From Pseudonocardia sp. HH130629-09 (GTDB lineage: Bacteria; Actinomycetota; Actinomycetes; Mycobacteriales; Pseudonocardiaceae): 64,000 nucleotides of DNA. Under the pieces are notes generated by a model. That model was given only the letters and a program-made list of their open reading frames with translations, searched no databases and was not told the DNA's origin. The position numbers were made by a program, and so were the translations under genes. Positions 17,291 to 30,363 of the stretch are shown piece after piece. The stretch spans positions 620,001 through 684,000 of the forward strand of contig NZ_CP011868.1 in assembly GCF_001294645.1 (NCBI RefSeq), given 5' to 3'. Numbering within the stretch: position 1 is the first letter of the stretch; the number at the start of each line of letters is the position of its first letter.

Positions 17291-18148
17291 TCAGCCGTGG
17301 TGGCGGTAGTCGACGATCGCCCGGTCGGTGCACGCTCCGCAGTCGGCGCCGACGAACTGTGCGGCGGCGGCCGTGTCGCCGCGCAGCTGGTAGTCCAGCC
17401 AGGCGGTCAGCAGAGCGCGGAACCGGCCTCCGTCGGGGAGCGGCTCGAAGTGGCCGACACCGGCGAACTCGGCGTAGGCCGCCTCGACCTGGGGGGTGTT
17501 CTCGTAGAACGGCTCCACGATCAGCTCCGGCCGCGCCGTCGTGTCCCGCTCGCCCGCCAGGTACAGGATCGGGCCCCGGATGCGCTGCGGCACCGCCAGC
17601 GGCCCCGGCTGCACGGCGACGATGGTCGTGATCAGCGGGTCGGCCGCGGCTACCATCGCACCGGCGCCCCCTGGCGAGTGCCCGGTCGCGGCGATCGCCG
17701 AGGTGTCGACCCGCTGGTAGTAGGGGCTGCCGGGGTCGGCATCGGCCCGCACGAGCGTGCGCGCGCCCGCGAGCATCTCCTGCCCGCTGTTGGCCAGCGG
17801 GGTGTTGGCGGCGGTGACGAGGTAGCCGTGCGAGGCGAGGTGGATCAGCAGGCCTCGGTAGACGGCGGGGATGCCGCCGGTGCCGTTGCCCCAGGTCACG
17901 ACCGGGTGCCGGGTGCCGGGTGGACCGAGGTCGGCGGGCCGGAACACGGTGTGGGTCGCCCCGATCTCCTCGGTGACCTCCTCCGGCCCCGGCGCGCTCC
18001 AACGGTCGATCGGAGCGGCCGTGGTCGCGGTCGCGGTCGCGGTGTGTGCGATCCGACCGGTCGCGGCGGTCGCGGGCTGTGCGGCCGCGACCGGGCCGAG
18101 CAGGGAGCCGACGCACAGCACCGCGGTGAGCAGGGGAGTGACCCGCAC
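17291..18148 (-). CDS. Secreted alpha/beta hydrolase (cutinase/chlorophyllase-like)
   Basis: A 285-residue protein with a signal peptide cleaved near AAAQPATAA. The nucleophile elbow is GHSPGGAG (Ser), the acid lies in YLAGERDTTARPE and the histidine in FAGVGHFEP. An oxyanion-type VTWGNGTGG segment precedes them, and two Cys near the C-terminus (DCGACTD) may form a disulfide. The fold and order resemble the dienelactone/PET-hydrolase-like secreted esterases; the polymer or ester substrate is not known. GTG 18148 has GGAGGAGC upstream. IS30 copy 1 is inserted about 57 bases upstream of this start and may have displaced its promoter. Confidence 0.85.
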   Translation of the reverse strand: MRVTPLLTAVLCVGSLLGPVAAAQPATAATGRIAHTATATATTAAPIDRWSAPGPEEVTEEIGATHTVFRPADLGPPGTRHPVVTWGNGTGGIPAVYRGLLIHLASHGYLVTAANTPLANSGQEMLAGARTLVRADADPGSPYYQRVDTSAIAATGHSPGGAGAMVAAADPLITTIVAVQPGPLAVPQRIRGPILYLAGERDTTARPELIVEPFYENTPQVEAAYAEFAGVGHFEPLPDGGRFRALLTAWLDYQLRGDTAAAAQFVGADCGACTDRAIVDYRHHG

Positions 18149-18204: not shown

Positions 18205-19428
18205 CTTGGACTCAACCGGTCAGCGCAACAGTGCTCCGAATCTATCAGCCGGGGTGTCGAAATCAAGCGTTTTGCGCGGTCGGGTGTTGAGGCGTTCCGC
18301 GACGCGGTCGAGTTGGGCCTGGGTGATGTGGTCGAGCCGGGTGCCCTTCGGGAAGTACTGGCGTAGTAGCCGGTTGGTGTTCTCGTTCGTGCCACGCTGC
18401 CAGGGGCTGGCCGGGTCGGCGAAGTAGACGTCCAACCCGGTCCGGGCGGTGACGATGGTGTGGCGGGCCAGTTCCATCCCGCGGTCCCAGGTCAGCGACT
18501 TGCGGACGTGTTCGGGCAGTCGGGCCATCTGCCGGGACAGTTGGTGGGCGACGGTGTGCATGTCGCGCCCTCCGAGCGCGACCAGCACGGTGAACCGGGT
18601 CGCGCGCTCGACCACGGTCGCGATCTGGGTGGTGCCACGCCCGAGCAGCAGATCACCTTCCCAGTGCCCGGGCACCGCCCGATCAGTCACCTCGGCGGGC
18701 CGGTCGTGGATGGAGACCGCGCCGGGGATCTGCGAGCGCCACTGCCCACCGGTGGTGTTGTGCACGTTACGCCGGATCGGACGGCCCGACCGCAGGTGTT
18801 TCTGCAGGTCTTTGGCCAGCACACCGCGGGTCTGCACGAACAGCGACTTGTAGATCGTCTCGTGTGACACCCGCATCCCCGATCCCGGAGCGTAGTGCTT
18901 GGCCAGGTGCCCGGCGATCTGCTCGGGCGACCAGTCCTCACCCAGTCTGGCAGCGACGAACCCACACAGCAGCGGACGACGGGCGAGCAGACACGTCTTG
19001 GGGCGCTGGGCCCGGCGCCAGGCGCGGTCCTCGGCGTCCACAGCACGGTAGGCACGCCGACCCTTGTTGCGGGCGACCTCCCGGCTCACCGTCGAGGCCG
19101 GACGACCGAGCCCAGCCGCGATGGCCCGGATCGAACGATACTGGGCCAGACCACGAGAGATCTCCTCCCGCTCGGCCGCGGTCAGCGTCCCCGGTCGGCG
19201 ACGACGTGATGGCGGCACGTAGCCACCGGTGGACTTGAGCACCGTGAACACCGACCCCGGCGGGCGTCCGATCGCCCGAGCGATGTCACTGATCGACTCC
19301 CCACGCCCCCACCGGACCCACAGATCCGCGCGGTCGGCATCGGACATCCCAGGTCGTCCCAGTCGCGCCATCCCACACCCCTATCATGATCAACTACCCG
19401 GGTGTTGCGCTGACCGGTTGAGTCCAAG
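18205..19428 (-). mobile_element. IS30-family insertion sequence, copy 1
   Basis: A 1224-bp element with perfect 26-base terminal inverted repeats beginning CTTGGACTCAACCGGTCAGC. It is flanked by a 2-base direct repeat AA (18203-18204 and 19429-19430). It encodes one IS30 transposase on the minus strand. It has the same length, ends and encoded protein as the copy at 34415-35638, and I saw no difference between them, which points to recent transposition. Confidence 0.95.
18220..19371 (-). CDS. IS30 family transposase
   Basis: A 383-residue DDE transposase. The N-terminal half holds two helix-turn-helix motifs (ISDIARAIGRPPGSVFTVL and IRAIAAGLGRPASTVSREV). The catalytic core includes PGHWEGDLLLG (first Asp), LTWDRGMELARH (second Asp) and SPWQRGTNENTNRLLRQYFPKG (Glu), as in IS30. 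Full length for the family and uninterrupted. It fills nearly the whole element, starting at ATG 19371. Confidence 0.96.
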   Translation of the reverse strand: MARLGRPGMSDADRADLWVRWGRGESISDIARAIGRPPGSVFTVLKSTGGYVPPSRRRRPGTLTAAEREEISRGLAQYRSIRAIAAGLGRPASTVSREVARNKGRRAYRAVDAEDRAWRRAQRPKTCLLARRPLLCGFVAARLGEDWSPEQIAGHLAKHYAPGSGMRVSHETIYKSLFVQTRGVLAKDLQKHLRSGRPIRRNVHNTTGGQWRSQIPGAVSIHDRPAEVTDRAVPGHWEGDLLLGRGTTQIATVVERATRFTVLVALGGRDMHTVAHQLSRQMARLPEHVRKSLTWDRGMELARHTIVTARTGLDVYFADPASPWQRGTNENTNRLLRQYFPKGTRLDHITQAQLDRVAERLNTRPRKTLDFDTPADRFGALLR

Positions 19429-19431
19429 AAT

Positions 19432-19596
19432 GAGCCTTTTTCAACCTGACCAGCGAGCTTCTGCGTCAGGAGATCGCGAAGGTTGCAGCGCAACTGCTCT
19501 GACCACAGCTGCACAGGTCACCGGCTCGCTAGCTCGGCGTCTGCACCCACACAACCAGGCCCCTGAGCTGCCGGAACGGCAGGTTGAAAAAGGCTC
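19432..19596. repeat. 165-bp MITE, copy A
   Basis: The termini GAGCCTTTTTCAACCT and AGGTTGAAAAAGGCTC are inverted repeats, and no coding sequence lies inside. It is flanked by AAT on both sides (19429-19431 and 19597-19599), a 3-base A-N-T target duplication. The ends resemble those of the IS5-family element at 29422-30363 (GAGCCTTTGCCAACCTGG). The AA duplicated by IS30 copy 1 overlaps the left AAT. Confidence 0.9.
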
Positions 19597-19683
19597 AATG
19601 TTACTTATACGGTCGAGTATGGCCTGTCGTACATGGGCCACCCAGTAGGGTGACGAGGTCGAGCGGAGGAGGTGACGGCCGCG

Positions 19684-20404: not shown

Positions 20405-20628
20405 TCAGCACGCATGCTCGAGGAACCAGGCGTAGGCGTCGGCGAGCCCGTCGCGCAGCTCGACCGTCGGCTGCCGGCCGAGTCCCCGGATCCGGGTGGT
20501 CTCCAGCAGCTTGCGGGGCGTCCCGTCCGGACGCCGTCGGTCGGGCACGATCAGCCCCTGGAAGCCGACCACGCGGCGATCATCGCGGCCAGGTCGCTGA
20601 TCGCCACGTCGAACCCGCTCCCGGCAGT
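20405..20628 (-). pseudogene. GDP-L-fucose synthase C-terminal remnant
   Basis: The minus strand reads RRPDGTPRKLLETTRIRGLG ... ELRDGLADAYAWFLEHA, the conserved C-terminus of GDP-fucose synthase (NAD-dependent epimerase family). Upstream, DVAISDLAAMIAA is in another frame, so there is a frameshift near 20573. The 5' part is missing at the MITE insertion (20629). It is a dead fragment of a nucleotide-sugar gene. Confidence 0.72.
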
Positions 20629-20793
20629 GAGCCTTTTTCAACCTGACCAGCGAGCTTCTGCGTCAGGAGATCGCGAAGGTTGCAGCGCAACTGCTCTGAC
20701 CACAGCTGCACAGGTCACCGGCTCGCCAGCTCGGCGTCTGCACCCACACAACCAGGCCCCTGAGCTGCCGGAACGGCAGGTTGAAAAGGGCTC
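20629..20793. repeat. 165-bp MITE, copy B
   Basis: Same length and ends as copy A, with few base differences. It is flanked by AGT on both sides (20626-20628 and 20794-20796), again A-N-T. The right-hand AGT is immediately followed by the left end of an IS5-like remnant. Confidence 0.9.
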
Positions 20794-20796
20794 AGT

Positions 20797-20932
20797 GAGC
20801 CTGTGCCAACCTGCTGGACGGGCAGGTCGGCGGCGGTGCGGCGTGGCGTGACCACGAAGGGGTGAAGCTCCTGGTAGACGGGCGATTACCGAGATCAACC
20901 CGCGCTAACCAGGAGATTCAAGGTGTTGTCCC
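20797..20932 (+). mobile_element. IS5-family left-end remnant
   Basis: Begins GAGCCTGTGCCAACCTGCTGG and continues with GGGTGAAGCTCCTGGTAGAC, GGGCGATTACCGAGATC and CCAGGAGATTCAAGGTG. These closely parallel the first 130 bases of the IS5-family element at 29422. Similarity stops at about 20932, just after the position of the transposase start, so only the 5' end is left. Confidence 0.8.
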
Positions 20933-22010: not shown

Positions 22011-22577
22011 CTACGAGGTGAGTGCGGGGTCCAGCGCGGCGGAGAGCTCCGCGACGCCGACCTGGCCGCGGTAGCGCTCGCCGTTCACGAACAGTGTCGG
22101 CGTGCCGCGGACCCCGGAGCGCACGGCCGCGTTGAACCCGGCCTCCACCCGGTCCTCCGCCAGCTGCGTCGCCGGCCAGACGACCCGGTCCGGACGCACC
22201 CCCGCGGCGACGGCGTGTTCCCGCAGGTCGTCCTGGCGCAGCCGGGGCGGGCCGGGGGCGAACAGCGTCTCGTGCATCTCCCAGAACCGGCCCTCGAAGC
22301 CGGCCATCTCCGCGGCGAGCGCTGCCGCGATGGCGTGCGGATGCACCTCGTGCAGCGGGAAGTGCCGGAACACGAACTGCAGCCGGTCCCCGAAACGGAC
22401 GCGGACCTGCTCCAGGACCGGCGCCGCATCGCGGCAGTACGGGCACTCGAAGTCGCCGTACTCCACCAGCGTCAGCTCGGCCTCGGGTGGGCCCAGGACG
22501 TGGTCGTACGGTCCGACGGGTGGGTCCAGACTGATGGCGGCCTCCTCGTCGTGACCCGCGCAGGGCAGGATCAGCAC
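22011..22577 (-). CDS. DsbA/thioredoxin-like disulfide protein
   Basis: A 188-residue thioredoxin-fold protein with the active site FECPYCRDAAP and the cis-Pro segment GVRGTPTLFVNGERYRG. It has no signal peptide, so it is cytosolic or was once a domain of a larger protein. In many actinobacteria this DsbA-like domain is the C-terminal half of NhaA; here the linker-like LDPPVGPYDHVLGPPEAE remains at its N-terminus, but the gene is separate and inverted. GTG 22577 abuts the ATG of nhaA (22578), leaving no intergenic base. Confidence 0.85.
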   Translation of the reverse strand: MLILPCAGHDEEAAISLDPPVGPYDHVLGPPEAELTLVEYGDFECPYCRDAAPVLEQVRVRFGDRLQFVFRHFPLHEVHPHAIAAALAAEMAGFEGRFWEMHETLFAPGPPRLRQDDLREHAVAAGVRPDRVVWPATQLAEDRVEAGFNAAVRSGVRGTPTLFVNGERYRGQVGVAELSAALDPALTS

Positions 22578-23918
22578 ATGGCGGTGGTGACCCTAGCCGA
22601 GCGCGGCGACCTCTCCGATGCCGCGAGGCGCTTCCTCGGGACCGAGTCCGGATCGGCGGTCCTGCTGGTCGGGGCGGCCGTCGTGGCCCTGGTGTGGGCC
22701 AACCTGGGTGCCGGGTACGAGTCGTTCTGGCACACCGGCTTGGCCGTCTCCTTCGGCGATGCCGCGCTCGACCTCGACCTGAAGCACTGGGTCAACGACG
22801 GCCTGATGGTCCTGTTCTTCCTCTCGGTCGGGCTGGAGATCGCCCGCGAGACGACGCTGGGGGAGCTGCGCGGTTTCCGTGCCCTGGCCGCACCGGCCGC
22901 GGCCGCGCTGGGTGGCCTCGTCGTACCCGCGCTGTTCTTCCTCGCGCTCAACGCCGGGGGTGAGGCAGCGGGCGCCTGGGGCATCGCGATCTCCACCGAC
23001 ACGGCGGTGATGCTCGGGGTGCTGGCGCTGCTCGGGCCGCGCTGCCCGGACCAGCTGCGGGTGTTCCTGCTGGCGCTGGCCATCGTCGACGACATCGGCG
23101 CGGTGCTGGCGATCGCGCTGTTCTACACCGACGAGGTCGACCTGCTCGCGCTGTTCGTCGCCGTCGTGCTGCTCGCCGGGCTGCTCGCGCTGCGCTGGGT
23201 GCGGTTCTGGCGGACGCCGTTCTACGCCGTCGTCGGGATCCTGTGCTGGGTCGCGGTGCTGCGCTCGGGGGTGCACCCGAGCGTCGTCGGCGTCGCGCTC
23301 GGGCTGCTGGTCAACGCCTACGCACCCCGCCGCACGGAGATGGTCGAGGCGGTGCGGATCGGCAAGAACTTCCTGCTCGACCCGACCCCGGAGCGGGCTC
23401 GCACCGCCCGCGCGGTCGCGGTCGCCGCCGTCTCGCCGAACGAGCGGCTGCAGCAGGCGATCCAGCCGTGGAGCAGCTACGTCATCGTGCCGCTGTTCGT
23501 GCTCGCCAACGCCGGCGTGGTGCTCTCGTCGGAGACCCTGTCCGCCGCGGCGACCTCGCTGCTGACCTGGGGCATCGTGCTTGGACTGGTGGTGGGCAAG
23601 CCGATCGGCGTCGCCGTCGGGACGTGGGTCGCGCTGCGCACCGGGCTGGGACGGGTGCCGGACACGCTGCGCTGGGGACAGCTGCTCGGCGGCTCGGCGC
23701 TGTCGGGCATCGGGTTCACCGTGGCGCTGTTCGTCACTGAGCTCGCGCTCACCGACGAGCTGCTCATCGCCGAGGCGAAGATCGGGATCCTCACCGGGTC
23801 GGTGCTGGCGGCGCTGTCGGGCTGGCTGGTGTTCCGGCTGGCCGGCGAGCGCGGTGGGCAGTGCGCGCCGAGCGGGCTGCCGATGCTGCCGCCGCGTCCG
23901 TGGCGGCCGGTGGACTGA
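22578..23918 (+). CDS. nhaA: Na+/H+ antiporter NhaA
   Basis: A 446-residue membrane antiporter. NhaA hallmarks are the GLMVLFFLSVGLEIARE segment, STDTAVMLGVLALLGPRCP, and the ion-binding Asp pair in LALAIVDDIGAVLAIALFY. The GKPIGV and GSALSGIGFTVALFV segments close the core. It exchanges protons for sodium across the cell membrane in pH and salt homeostasis. Its ATG abuts the divergent dsbA-like start, so its promoter must lie inside that gene. The C-terminal thioredoxin domain found in many actinobacterial NhaA proteins is missing here. Confidence 0.94.
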   Translation: MAVVTLAERGDLSDAARRFLGTESGSAVLLVGAAVVALVWANLGAGYESFWHTGLAVSFGDAALDLDLKHWVNDGLMVLFFLSVGLEIARETTLGELRGFRALAAPAAAALGGLVVPALFFLALNAGGEAAGAWGIAISTDTAVMLGVLALLGPRCPDQLRVFLLALAIVDDIGAVLAIALFYTDEVDLLALFVAVVLLAGLLALRWVRFWRTPFYAVVGILCWVAVLRSGVHPSVVGVALGLLVNAYAPRRTEMVEAVRIGKNFLLDPTPERARTARAVAVAAVSPNERLQQAIQPWSSYVIVPLFVLANAGVVLSSETLSAAATSLLTWGIVLGLVVGKPIGVAVGTWVALRTGLGRVPDTLRWGQLLGGSALSGIGFTVALFVTELALTDELLIAEAKIGILTGSVLAALSGWLVFRLAGERGGQCAPSGLPMLPPRPWRPVD

Positions 23919-23950: not shown

Positions 23951-25209
23951 TCAGCCGGTGACGTCGCGCCCGATCAGCTGCCGGGCCACGATCCACTGCT
24001 GCAGCTCGTTGGCGCCCTCGAAGATCTCCAGGATCTTCGCGTCCCGGTACATCTCCTCCAGGCGGACCGACTCGCCGGACTCCGACACCTGCCGGGCGAA
24101 GCCCAGCGCGCCGTGGATCTGGATCGCCTCGCGGACGAGGTCGTTGGCCAGCCGGGTGCCGTAGGCCTTGGCCATGGCGGCCTCGGGCTCGGCCGACCGG
24201 TCGCCGCGGTCGAGCAGGGTCGCGGCCTTCTGGTAGAGCGTGCGGGCGCACTCGATCTCGGTCGCGCGCTGGGCCATCGTGAACTGCCAGTGCTGCATCG
24301 CGCCGAGCGGTCCGCCGAAGACCTGCCGCGTGCGCAGCCGCTGCACGGCCAGGTCCAGCGCGGCCTGGGCGACGCCGACGCCCGCCGCGCCGATCCCGAT
24401 CCGGCCCCGGACGAGCGCGGACAGGGCCACACCCAGCCCCACGCCCCACTGGCCGAGCAGGTTCCCGGCGGGGACCCGGACGTCGTCGAACACGATGTCG
24501 GCGGTGATCTGGCCCCGGTGGCCCATCTTCAGGTCGGGGGCACCGATCCGGACCCCGGGGTGGACAGGTCGACGAGGAACATGGCGGCCCGGTCGCTGCC
24601 CGCCCCGGCGCGCACGAGCACCGACACCCAGCCGGCGACGACGCTGTTGGTGATCCAGCGCTTGCGCCCGTTGAGCAGGTAGTCACCGTCGGCGGTCGGC
24701 TCGGCGACGGTCTGCATCCGCTCCGCGGTGAGGTCCGAGCTGGTCTCCGGCTCGGTCGTGGCGAAGGAGAACGCGGTGCGACCGCTGGTCAGCTCGGGGA
24801 TCAGCCGGGCGCGCAGCTCGTCGGAGGCGTAGGTGAGCGTCTGCGGGACGAGGATGCACTGGCCGTCGTAGACGCCCGCCATCGAGCTCGAGTGGTAGGC
24901 GATCTCCTCGGTGACCGTGCAGGTGGCGAGCATCGGGTGCGCCAGCCCCGCGCCGAAGTCGGCGCCGAACGGCACCTCGAACAGGCCCTCCTCGGCGAGG
25001 CCGCGGAACGCCTCCCACGGGAAGCTGTCGGCGGACTCCTCGCGGGCGCCGATGTCGCGGGCGTGCGGGGCGAGCCGCTTCTCGACGGCGGCGCGGGCCG
25101 TCGCACGGACCGCGACGATCTCGTCGGGCAGCCAGACGTCGTGGGTCATGCGGTCCTGCGTGCGCGGCACCTGGGTCTCGGTGCCCCGTCCCTGCTCGGC
25201 GATCGTCAC
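23951..25209 (-). pseudogene. Acyl-CoA dehydrogenase, single frameshift
   Basis: The N-terminal part (24529-25209) carries GLAEEGLFEVPFGADFGAG, FATTEPETSSDLTAERM and LNGRKRWITNS, and breaks after LVDLSTPG. The C-terminal part (23951-24526) resumes with MGHRGQITADIVFDDVRVP and contains RQVFGGPLGAMQHWQF, QIHGALGFARQ and EIFEGANELQQWIVAR. Together they make a full acyl-CoA dehydrogenase. One extra G beside 24557-24560 would rejoin the frames in mid-motif. The FAD flavoenzyme would desaturate an acyl-CoA. A palindrome upstream suggests TetR-type control. Real mutation or sequencing error cannot be told apart here. Confidence 0.85.
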
Positions 25210-27728: not shown

Positions 27729-27914
27729 ATGGACGCCCTGCTGCTGCTCACCGCCGAGGAGACCGCCAAGCTGCTCCACATCGGACGCTGCAAGGTCTAT
27801 GACCTGATCCGCAACAACGAGTTGCGCTCCATCAAGATCGGTGGTGCCCGCCGCATCCCGCGTTCGGCCGTGGAGGAGTACGTCGCCCGGCTGCTCGACG
27901 ATGACGCGGCCTGA
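27729..27914 (+). CDS. Excisionase-type helix-turn-helix protein
   Basis: A 61-residue MerR-like winged helix of the excisionase type: LLTAEETAKLLHIGRCKVYDLIRNNELRSIKIGGARRIPRSAVEEYV-like order, with the typical C-terminal YV anchor. It would bend att DNA and promote excision by the adjacent integrase. Its TGA overlaps the integrase ATG by one base (TGATG). It closely resembles the excisionase at 43835-44023 (KVYDLIRNG). Confidence 0.85.
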   Translation: MDALLLLTAEETAKLLHIGRCKVYDLIRNNELRSIKIGGARRIPRSAVEEYVARLLDDDAA

Positions 27915-29140
27915 TGCCGCCGCGCAGGCCCCGAGGCCGCCGGGGCAACGGAGAGGGCTCGATCTACCAGCGCGAGAGCGACGGCTACTGGGTCGGCATG
28001 GCCTATGTGCACACCACGTCCGGGCAGATCAAACGCCGCCCCGTCTACGGGCGGTCGTTCGAGGAGGTCCGCGAGAAGCTCGACGTCCTCAAGACCCGCT
28101 CGGCCGCCGGGATGCCCGCACCTGACCGGCGCACGACCGTCGCGCAGTTCCTCGACCAGTGGCTCGCCGACATCCGCGACGACAAGCGCGCCACCACGAT
28201 CCGCGGCTACGAGTCCGCGGTCCGGCTGCACCTGGTGCCCGCTCTCGGCAAGAAGCGCCTCGACCGGCTCAACGCCACCGACGTCCGCTCGTTCATGGCC
28301 GGGATGCGGGAGAAGTGCCTCTGCTGCGCCAACCAGTGGGACGCCCGCCGGCCGCCGGCGCAGCAGTGCTGCTCACGGGGACGTTGCTGCGGGCGCCGGC
28401 CCTCGCCCCGGCAGCTCCAGTTCGTGCACGCCGTCCTGCGCAACGCGCTCGGGCACGCCGAGCGCCTGGAGCTGGTCCCGCGCAACGTCGCCAAGCTCGT
28501 GCGGGTCAAGACGCCGGAGTACTCCGTCGGGAAGGGGCTGCCTGTCGACCAGGTTCGCACGCTCCTCACGGCCGCGGAGGGGACGAGGTTCCATCCGCTC
28601 TACGTCGTCGCGGCCACCCTCGGACTCCGACGCGGCGAGCTGCTCGGGCTGCGGTGGTGTGACATCGACATGGACGACGCGACGATCCACGTCCGGCAGA
28701 CCGTGCAGCGGGTCGGCGGCGAGCTGGTCGTCGAGGGCACCAAGACCCGCGCCTCGTCGGCCGTCGTCCCGCTGCCGAAGATCACCCGCTCGGCGATCCT
28801 GGCTCGTCGCCGCATCTGGGCCGACGAACGGGAGACCGCGGGGGAGTGCTGGCAGGACCACGACCTTGTGCTCTGCACGCAGATCGGCACCCCGCTCGAA
28901 CCGCGCGCGGTGAACCGCGACTTCGACAAGCTCCGCGTCCGCGCTGGCCTTCCTGGCGTTCGGCTGCACGACCTGCGGCACACCGTCGTCAGCTTGCTGC
29001 TGTCGCTCGGGACGCCGCCGCACGTGGTGCAGGCCATCGCCCGGCACGCCGACATCGACGTGACCATGACGATCTACGCCCACACCAACCTGGACGAGAT
29101 GCGCCAGGCGCTCGATGCGATCGAGTGGGAGGCGGGATGA
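27914..29140 (+). CDS. Tyrosine site-specific integrase with Cys-rich insert
   Basis: A 408-residue integrase. An arm-binding N-terminus (RGNGEGSIYQRESDGYWVG) and SAM-like core-binding domain are followed by the catalytic domain: Arg in LGLRRGELLGLRW, HDLRHTVVSLLLSLG, and Tyr in TIYAHTNLDEM. A Cys-rich insert (CLCCANQWDARR ... CCSRGRCCGR, about residues 135-158) lies in the core-binding domain and may bind zinc; a similar insert is in the integrase at 57471. Start overlaps the excisionase stop. Confidence 0.92.
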   Translation: MPPRRPRGRRGNGEGSIYQRESDGYWVGMAYVHTTSGQIKRRPVYGRSFEEVREKLDVLKTRSAAGMPAPDRRTTVAQFLDQWLADIRDDKRATTIRGYESAVRLHLVPALGKKRLDRLNATDVRSFMAGMREKCLCCANQWDARRPPAQQCCSRGRCCGRRPSPRQLQFVHAVLRNALGHAERLELVPRNVAKLVRVKTPEYSVGKGLPVDQVRTLLTAAEGTRFHPLYVVAATLGLRRGELLGLRWCDIDMDDATIHVRQTVQRVGGELVVEGTKTRASSAVVPLPKITRSAILARRRIWADERETAGECWQDHDLVLCTQIGTPLEPRAVNRDFDKLRVRAGLPGVRLHDLRHTVVSLLLSLGTPPHVVQAIARHADIDVTMTIYAHTNLDEMRQALDAIEWEAG

Positions 29141-29367: not shown

Positions 29368-29421
29368 GCGTCGATCAGAGCAGGTCAGGTCGCCATGGTC
29401 TACGCGGTTGCGGGAGCCACT

Positions 29422-30363
29422 GAGCCTTTGCCAACCTGGTGTTGGGGCTGGTCAGAGCCTGTGCGGCGTGGCGTGCCCTCGGATGGGTGAAGCTCCTGGT
29501 AGACGGGCGATTGCTGAGATCGAAACCGTCCAACCAGGAGCTTCAAGGTGCTGTCCTACCCGTCCGGGATGACCGTGTCCAGCCGTGCCCTGCACGTGCT
29601 CTCCGACGCGTTGCGCGCGCACCGCAACCAGCGCCAGAGCCGGTGGCGGAAGCTGACGGCGGGCCGTCAGGCCCTGCTCGTCATGGCCCACCTGCGCAAG
29701 GGCGAGACCTACGCCGATCTGGCCTGCGGTTTCCGGGTCGGGACCTCGACGGTGTACCGCTACCTGCGCGAGGCGATCGACCTGCTCGCGACGATGGCCC
29801 CCACCCTCGAGCAGGCCATCGAGATCGCCATCGGCAAGGCGTTCGTGATCCTCGACGGCACCTTGCTGCGCATCGACCGCGTCGGGATGGCCTCGGGCTA
29901 TGACCGCGGGTTCTACTCCGGCAAGCACAAGTGCCACTGACTCAACGTCCAGGTCATCGCCGATCCGGCCGGCCGGCTGGTGTGGATCTCCCCGCCGCTT
30001 CCCGGAGCCCGCCACGACATGGGCGCCGCCCGCGAGCACGGCATCATCGACGCCCTGACCGAGCACCGGATCCGGGCGGCTGCCGACACCGCATATCAGG
30101 GCGCCGGCCCGACGGTCGCGGTCCCGCACCGGCGGCGACGCAAGGACCCCGACACCGGCCGGTTCCGTCCGCTGTCGCACAACCAGCGCGAGGTCAACGC
30201 CGCTCACTCACGCCGCCGCGGACCCGGTGAGCGGGTCAACGCCGAGCTGAAGAACTGGAAGATCCTGCGCAAGATCCGCTCCAGCCCGAACCGGGCCGGA
30301 CAGCTCATCGCCGCAGTTCAGACCCTCATGATCGTCAACACCTGACCAGGTTGGCAAAGGCTC
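29422..30363 (+). mobile_element. IS5-family element (ISL2-like)
   Basis: A 942-bp element with inverted ends GAGCCTTTGCCAACCTGG and CCAGGTTGGCAAAGGCTC. It is flanked by ACT on the left (29419-29421) and AGT on the right (30364-30366): both fit A-N-T, the ISL2-group target form, but they do not match. Its right-hand AGT directly precedes MITE copy C. It holds one transposase frame broken by an internal TGA. Confidence 0.9.
29548..30345 (+). pseudogene. IS5-family transposase with in-frame TGA
   Basis: Frame 29548 encodes an N-terminal helix-turn-helix (YADLACGFRVGTSTVYRYL) and the first catalytic Asp region (VILDGTLLRIDRVG). It hits TGA at 29938-29940 after GKHKCH, then continues in the same frame with LNVQVIADPAGRLVW, the second Asp in AADTAYQGAGP, and the Glu region ERVNAELKNWKILRKIR to 30345. 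The family has Gly at the stop position, so one G-to-T change (GGA to TGA) explains it. Inactive unless read through. Confidence 0.88.

Follow-up and report, generated by a model that had tools for sequence, protein, structure and literature searches.

A genus-wide divergent nhaA/dsbA-like gene pair in Pseudonocardia and the probable AUC or AUU translation start of its redox gene

To our knowledge, very few bacterial genes with an AUC or AUU start have been described, and gene finders ignore such starts. According to one study (PMC5472188), infC, which encodes the self-regulating translation factor IF3, starts with ATT in E. coli and with ATC in Streptomyces, while IF3 represses the Streptomyces thiol-stress gene sigR, whose GTC start follows an extended Shine-Dalgarno site. 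The locus described here, from Pseudonocardia sp. HH130629-09, resembles infC in having a strong Shine-Dalgarno site followed after about 5 nt by AUC or AUU, but it encodes a redox protein. It resembles sigR as an actinobacterial thiol-related gene with a non-canonical start and an extended Shine-Dalgarno site. With respect to its proteins, the closest systems are the actinobacterial NhaA-thioredoxin fusions, such as those at loci of Geodermatophilus, Nonomuraea and Streptomyces, which carry the same two domains, homologous throughout, in one chain, whereas Pseudonocardia has two divergent genes. A literature search on such fusions and on Pseudonocardia nhaA returned nothing pertinent, and searches of open-access literature listed no earlier report of the DsbA-like gene or of its predicted AUC/AUU start.

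The window, meaning the whole stretch of 64,000 nucleotides that was analysed, covers bases 620001-684000 of contig 1 in a 6.3 Mb genome. On its forward strand, nhaA (22578-23918, ATG at 22578-22580) encodes a 446-residue Na+/H+ antiporter, which scores 431.6 bits against Pfam Na_H_antiport_1 (cut-off 23.5) and 321.1 bits against TIGR00773, above the curated cut-off of 254. It aligns to E. coli NhaA (1zcd) with E 2.8e-76, including the Asp-Asp pair and the lysine of GKP. The DsbA-like gene lies on the reverse strand, its open reading frame spanning 22011-22577 when counted from the first GTG (22577-22575) and 22011-22535, or 174 codons, from the predicted ATC start. Its product scores 66.8 bits against Pfam Thioredoxin_4 (cut-off 23.2) and has an active-site CPYC motif (22434-22445, reverse strand); both cysteines and the loop proline (cis-Pro) are invariant in an alignment of 22 rows. 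A structure model begun at the ATC reached pLDDT 94.3 and pTM 0.90, with a mean of 92 over the first ten residues, and BdbD and 3gyk are its nearest solved folds, the TM-scores by query length against 3eu3, 3gyk and 4gxz being 0.78-0.81. These DsbA/BdbD/ScsC-type proteins share the fold, the CxxC and the cis-Pro loop with the DsbA-like protein and are exported, whereas no signal peptide or membrane anchor was seen in the latter when its N-terminus, ISLDPPVGPYDH, was read by eye.

Several other features were observed around the pair. An acyl-CoA dehydrogenase (23951-25209, reverse strand) occupies two frames, with the N-terminal and middle parts at 24529-25209 and the C-terminal part at 23951-24526, which reflects either a frameshift in the gene or an error in the sequence. 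A transposase gene (18220-19371, reverse strand), with HTH_38 and integrase core domains, is one which we take to be IS30-like, and a reverse-strand gene at 17291-18148 encodes a predicted alpha/beta hydrolase with 52 bits against the Pfam family PETase (PET hydrolase-like; cut-off 28). A 170-nt direct repeat, 98% identical between its copies (19431-19600 and 20628-20797), lies on both sides of a TetR-type regulator gene. A second repeat, 82% identical, joins 20793-20875, near the dsbA/nhaA pair, to 29418-29500, beyond an integrase gene (27914-29140), and may be related to an integrated element.

Searches of 62 Pseudonocardia genomes with the two proteins in turn found the DsbA-like gene in 51 (E 1e-40 or better) and NhaA in 53 (E 1e-80 or better). 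Both genes occur in 49 genomes and neither in nine, with four (G018, G070, G076 and G082) set aside for matches of a fused or more distant type. The pair is divergent at all 49 loci read, one for each genome with this nhaA, and likewise in G121, from another genus of the same family. Two loci carry breaks, which are either decay or sequence errors: in G074 (L146) nhaA lies in two broken frames, and in G085 (L155) a 1-nt indel interrupts the DsbA-like gene. The initial annotation had asked whether an inversion had separated the antiporter from its customary fused domain. A recent inversion that broke such a fusion in this strain might be imagined, given how often other actinobacteria have NhaA-thioredoxin fusions, but the 49 of 49 genomes and G121 all speak against it, as does the grouping of the 16 divergent rows of the NhaA tree in a single clade with 99% support. 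It was rejected for this strain, its chance being negligible. As judged from this comparison of genomes, the arrangement is old and genus-wide, and there was no recent inversion.

The claim that the antiporter is separated from its customary thioredoxin-type partner, with divergent genes for the two, has, on the other hand, been confirmed: the two domains do not share a reading frame in the window but form two divergent genes, and the split forms fall among the fused ones in the trees. Apart from the divergent loci of the genus and G121, loci with both genes, from other lineages, include 42 fused (one a second copy), five tail-to-tail and one with dsbA followed by nhaA, where 20 loci with overlapping NhaA and thioredoxin matches were counted as fused. 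The trees were built by a quick method, with L104 omitted as a copy of L166 and the 16 divergent loci picked by hand. The tail-to-tail rows form another NhaA clade (100%), and both this and the divergent clade lie inside a clade with fused rows, within a wider grade of fusions. The thioredoxin tree has the same outline with weaker support. Since the divided forms branch from within the NhaA-thioredoxin fusions, the simplest reading, and a likely one, is that a fusion was split long ago, although the root of the NhaA tree, a single long-branched paralogue, is unsure. The linker-like N-terminus of the DsbA-like protein had been likened to that of the domain when fused to NhaA, but it does not indicate a broken fusion: unfused homologues from Paraburkholderia, Ancylobacter and others begin with MSxLxPPVGxxDH at the same place, and in the unfused homologues from Proteobacteria an ATG stands at the position matching the predicted start. 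In three fused genes (L082, L095 and L136) the linker holds a GTG preceded by a strong Shine-Dalgarno site; an internal start there could yield a free thioredoxin domain.

That predicted start in the window is an ATC on the reverse strand (22535-22533), in frame and 42 nt from nhaA, preceded at 5 nt by the Shine-Dalgarno site GAGGAGG (22541-22547, reverse strand; duplex -12.1 kcal/mol). Candidate starts were scored by walking upstream in frame from the CxxC and pairing the 13 bases upstream of each candidate with the 16S tail. Scoring covered 48 non-redundant divergent loci, the 49 less L155, whose indel breaks the frame after the ATC. L064, L070, L071, L075 and L150 had been dropped as second copies of L144, L157, L154, L156 and L009 by matching read-outs, and L164 and L165 were left out of the counts because the nhaA match was absent from the stretch examined. 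L014 was changed by hand from ATC to the ATG directly preceding it, while the reads are ambiguous for L151, which could be GTG or ATC, and for L027 and L029, which have ATC-ATC pairs. Across these loci, which are counted as loci and not as independent events, the codon spaced for the Shine-Dalgarno site is ATC in 29, ATT in five, ATG in nine and GTG in five, with no other codon. Valine at this position is always encoded by GTG, although the genes use GTC 1500 times and GTG 1418 times. On the tree, the start states require at least 14 changes, of which 11 or more exchange ATC/ATT for ATG/GTG or the reverse, and close pairs of loci share the same Shine-Dalgarno site while differing in the start (L019 with ATG and L031 with ATT; L028 with ATC and L030 with ATG).

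The Shine-Dalgarno energy is -10 kcal/mol or lower at 27 of the 34 ATC/ATT starts but at only 19 of 1207 internal in-frame ATC/ATT codons; six of the 34 are weaker than -9, which counts against the reading. No ATC/ATT locus has an upstream alternative with a better Shine-Dalgarno site, the nearest being L147, with an ATG inside nhaA at -12.2 compared with -14.0 for its own ATC. Ten of the 34 lack any in-frame ATG, GTG or TTG between the predicted start and the upstream stop, and the window keeps a poor GTG. CTG was considered as a start and rejected, as five of these ten loci also lack an upstream CTG and CTC frequently encodes the leucine of the LDPP block. Relatives agree in 9.5% of amino acids immediately before the predicted start and in 77% immediately after it. 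ATT makes up 5/34 of the ATC/ATT starts but 4/1209 (0.3%) of the isoleucine codons elsewhere in these genes; as the five ATT loci represent about three lineages, the calculated probability of 1e-7 overstates the case, but ATT remains over-represented. Comparison across the genus thus places the start codon and its Shine-Dalgarno site consistently, and AUC initiation of the DsbA-like gene is well supported by these patterns. The presence of ATG or GTG in 14 of the 48 loci indicates that the rare start is not essential. A second DsbA-like copy in G007 (L164) also shows an ATC (289-291) behind a strong Shine-Dalgarno site, with no nhaA found in the 288 bases upstream.

For the window itself, an in-frame GTG is retained, so the start is not forced, and it is probably at the ATC. 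The GTG at 22577-22575, which the initial annotation had given as the start, does abut the nhaA ATG at 22578 with zero bases between, as had been described. If translation began there, the ATC would be an isoleucine codon within the gene and the start codons of both genes would touch, a reading which can appeal to the window and L006, where the GTG is in frame. Three very close loci have equal spacing to nhaA (L001, which is the window, L006 and L144), and the third, with a DsbA-like gene 91% identical, has GCG in place of the GTG and no other ATG, GTG or TTG upstream. Moreover, the site before the GTG pairs at only -3.2 kcal/mol, compared with -12.1 for the ATC, the stretch upstream is not conserved as protein, and in ten relatives no ATG, GTG or TTG is available as a start. 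The GTG was rejected as the start on these grounds and is a very improbable one. The contact between the two start codons is probably a coincidence, because the GTG is weak in Shine-Dalgarno pairing and is GCG in L144. Both findings which had been named at the outset as contrary to the initial annotation's reading, the use of a downstream start and a shared arrangement in related strains, have largely been made, the downstream start being probably used and the arrangement being common to all 49 genus genomes with this nhaA.

The infC gene serves as a control. It appears to start on ATC in the genus (L175-L204 and L205), with ATT in G031: among 30 loci, the 29 readable ones have 28 ATC and one ATT, and the window's own genome has ATC. 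G031 also has ATT in its DsbA-like gene (L020). Most infC genes of the genus have GAGGAG, a short spacer and ATC-AGC, and ATC-AGC is frequent in the DsbA-like gene as well; their usual annotation in the genus may be wrong too. Unlike the infC class, the DsbA-like gene has ATG or GTG in some species. The likeness to sigR extends to a GTG in or near the Shine-Dalgarno site, which makes a wrong call easy, but sigR encodes a sigma factor, its start is GTC and its response to IF3 has been tested, whereas for the DsbA-like gene, with its probable AUC start, such an effect is a prediction. By analogy with sigR of Streptomyces, the DsbA-like gene should be repressed by IF3. The ATC might instead be a start that is a neutral leftover, compensated by the strong Shine-Dalgarno site and used without IF3-dependent control; ATC/ATT and ATG/GTG have replaced one another at least 11 times in the genus, which suggests tolerance. 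Nonetheless, 34 of the 48 loci, lying to either side of the midpoint root, still have ATC or ATT although ATG is one base change away, and neutrality is a tenable though unlikely explanation. Five IF3 proteins of these genomes contain PPVCKLMD, and judging from this motif the IF3 cysteine discussed in PMC5472188 may be present. More speculatively, and rather doubtfully, there could be a translational redox circuit in which IF3, whose own gene starts with AUC, uses the AUC/AUU signal common to both genes to repress directly the cytosolic DsbA-like protein that partners NhaA. If IF3 were oxidised or in short supply, the level of the redox protein would then rise and NhaA would be adjusted, with interlocked promoters setting the ratio of the two messages.

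Comparison of the loci also draws attention to a rare leucine codon near the start of nhaA. Codon 6 is CTA in 25, TTA in 19 and CTG in four of 48 nhaA rows, which here include L155 (L007 lies outside the motif count and was read by eye as CTT); the CTG and CTT loci count against a -10 box at this codon. TTA or CTA thus occurs in 44 of 48, compared with 11 of the 3806 other leucine codons of both genes, among which TTA is absent. Read on the opposite strand, codons 6 and 5 (Thr) give TANNGT, which fits the pattern TANNNT, described as the -10 box of M. tuberculosis in PMC3898074; the same source reports that about a quarter of the genes with a primary start are leaderless in that organism. In the window, the TAGGGT predicted as -10 box for the DsbA-like gene (22590-22595, reverse strand) lies within codons 5-6 (ACC CTA), spaced for a dsbA transcription start about 6-7 nt on, at about 22584. 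Control by rare codons, as with bldA, is another way to view codon 6, which would then act on nhaA translation and not as a dsbA promoter element. The lack of TTA at the 3806 other leucine positions agrees with this, but CTA is as common here as TTA and the feature kept is TA, the first two places of TANNNT on the dsbA strand, making the rare-codon explanation quite improbable. A predicted dsbA promoter within nhaA is preferred.

Upstream of nhaA, the predicted -10-like box CAGGAT (22566-22571, forward strand) lies 6 nt before the ATG, at which a leaderless mRNA is predicted to begin. A box of the form NAnnnT, mostly CAGGAT, stands 6 nt before nhaA in 30, 7 nt in 13 and 8 nt in two of the 48 rows, and is missing in three, so that by this loose pattern 43 of 48 loci have the 6-7 nt spacing taken to mark a leaderless start. 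From this spacing nhaA looks leaderless. The box could alternatively be a weak Shine-Dalgarno site (mean -6.7), but loci which lose AGGA (AATGAT, GATGAT, CAGTAT, CATGAT, CAAGAT) retain the A and T of the box, contrary to that idea. A search found no terminator and neither a -35 element nor a sigma-70-type promoter, the lack of the last two counting against the predicted promoters. The complement of the Shine-Dalgarno site was considered as a -35 box for nhaA and rejected, its distance to the nhaA box differing between loci by eye. The suggestion that each promoter must lie inside the other gene is upheld in part: the predicted dsbA -10 box is within nhaA, but the predicted nhaA box lies in the dsbA 5' leader, which is non-coding if the ATC start is right.

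Taken together, these results are best accounted for by an ancient, genus-wide divergent pair in which an AUC/AUU-started, IF3-restrained dsbA-like gene has its promoter within nhaA and nhaA is leaderless, a reading to which we give a probability of roughly 0.75. The antiporter and its cytosolic DsbA-like partner would have split from the actinobacterial NhaA-thioredoxin fusion or represent an unfused form of it, and the two proteins would act in physical partnership. The dsbA-like mRNA would begin within nhaA, from the TANNNT box over codons 5-6; its leader, some 48 nt long, would carry the strong Shine-Dalgarno site, and translation would proceed from AUC, or from AUU in some species. As with infC of these genomes, IF3 would hold down this start, so that the redox protein stays scarce and follows the IF3 level. 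Transcription of nhaA would run in the opposite direction, as a leaderless mRNA from the -10-like box in the dsbA leader, and the two promoters would interlock. The DsbA-like gene would add a further clear AUC/AUU case, one that is kept genus-wide and does not belong to the translation apparatus, and its ATC, ATT, ATG and GTG forms offer a natural set of variants for testing the purpose of IF3-sensitive starts. A predicted -10 box inside the coding sequence of a neighbour, visible as a rare leucine codon, may also provide a way to find other such promoters.
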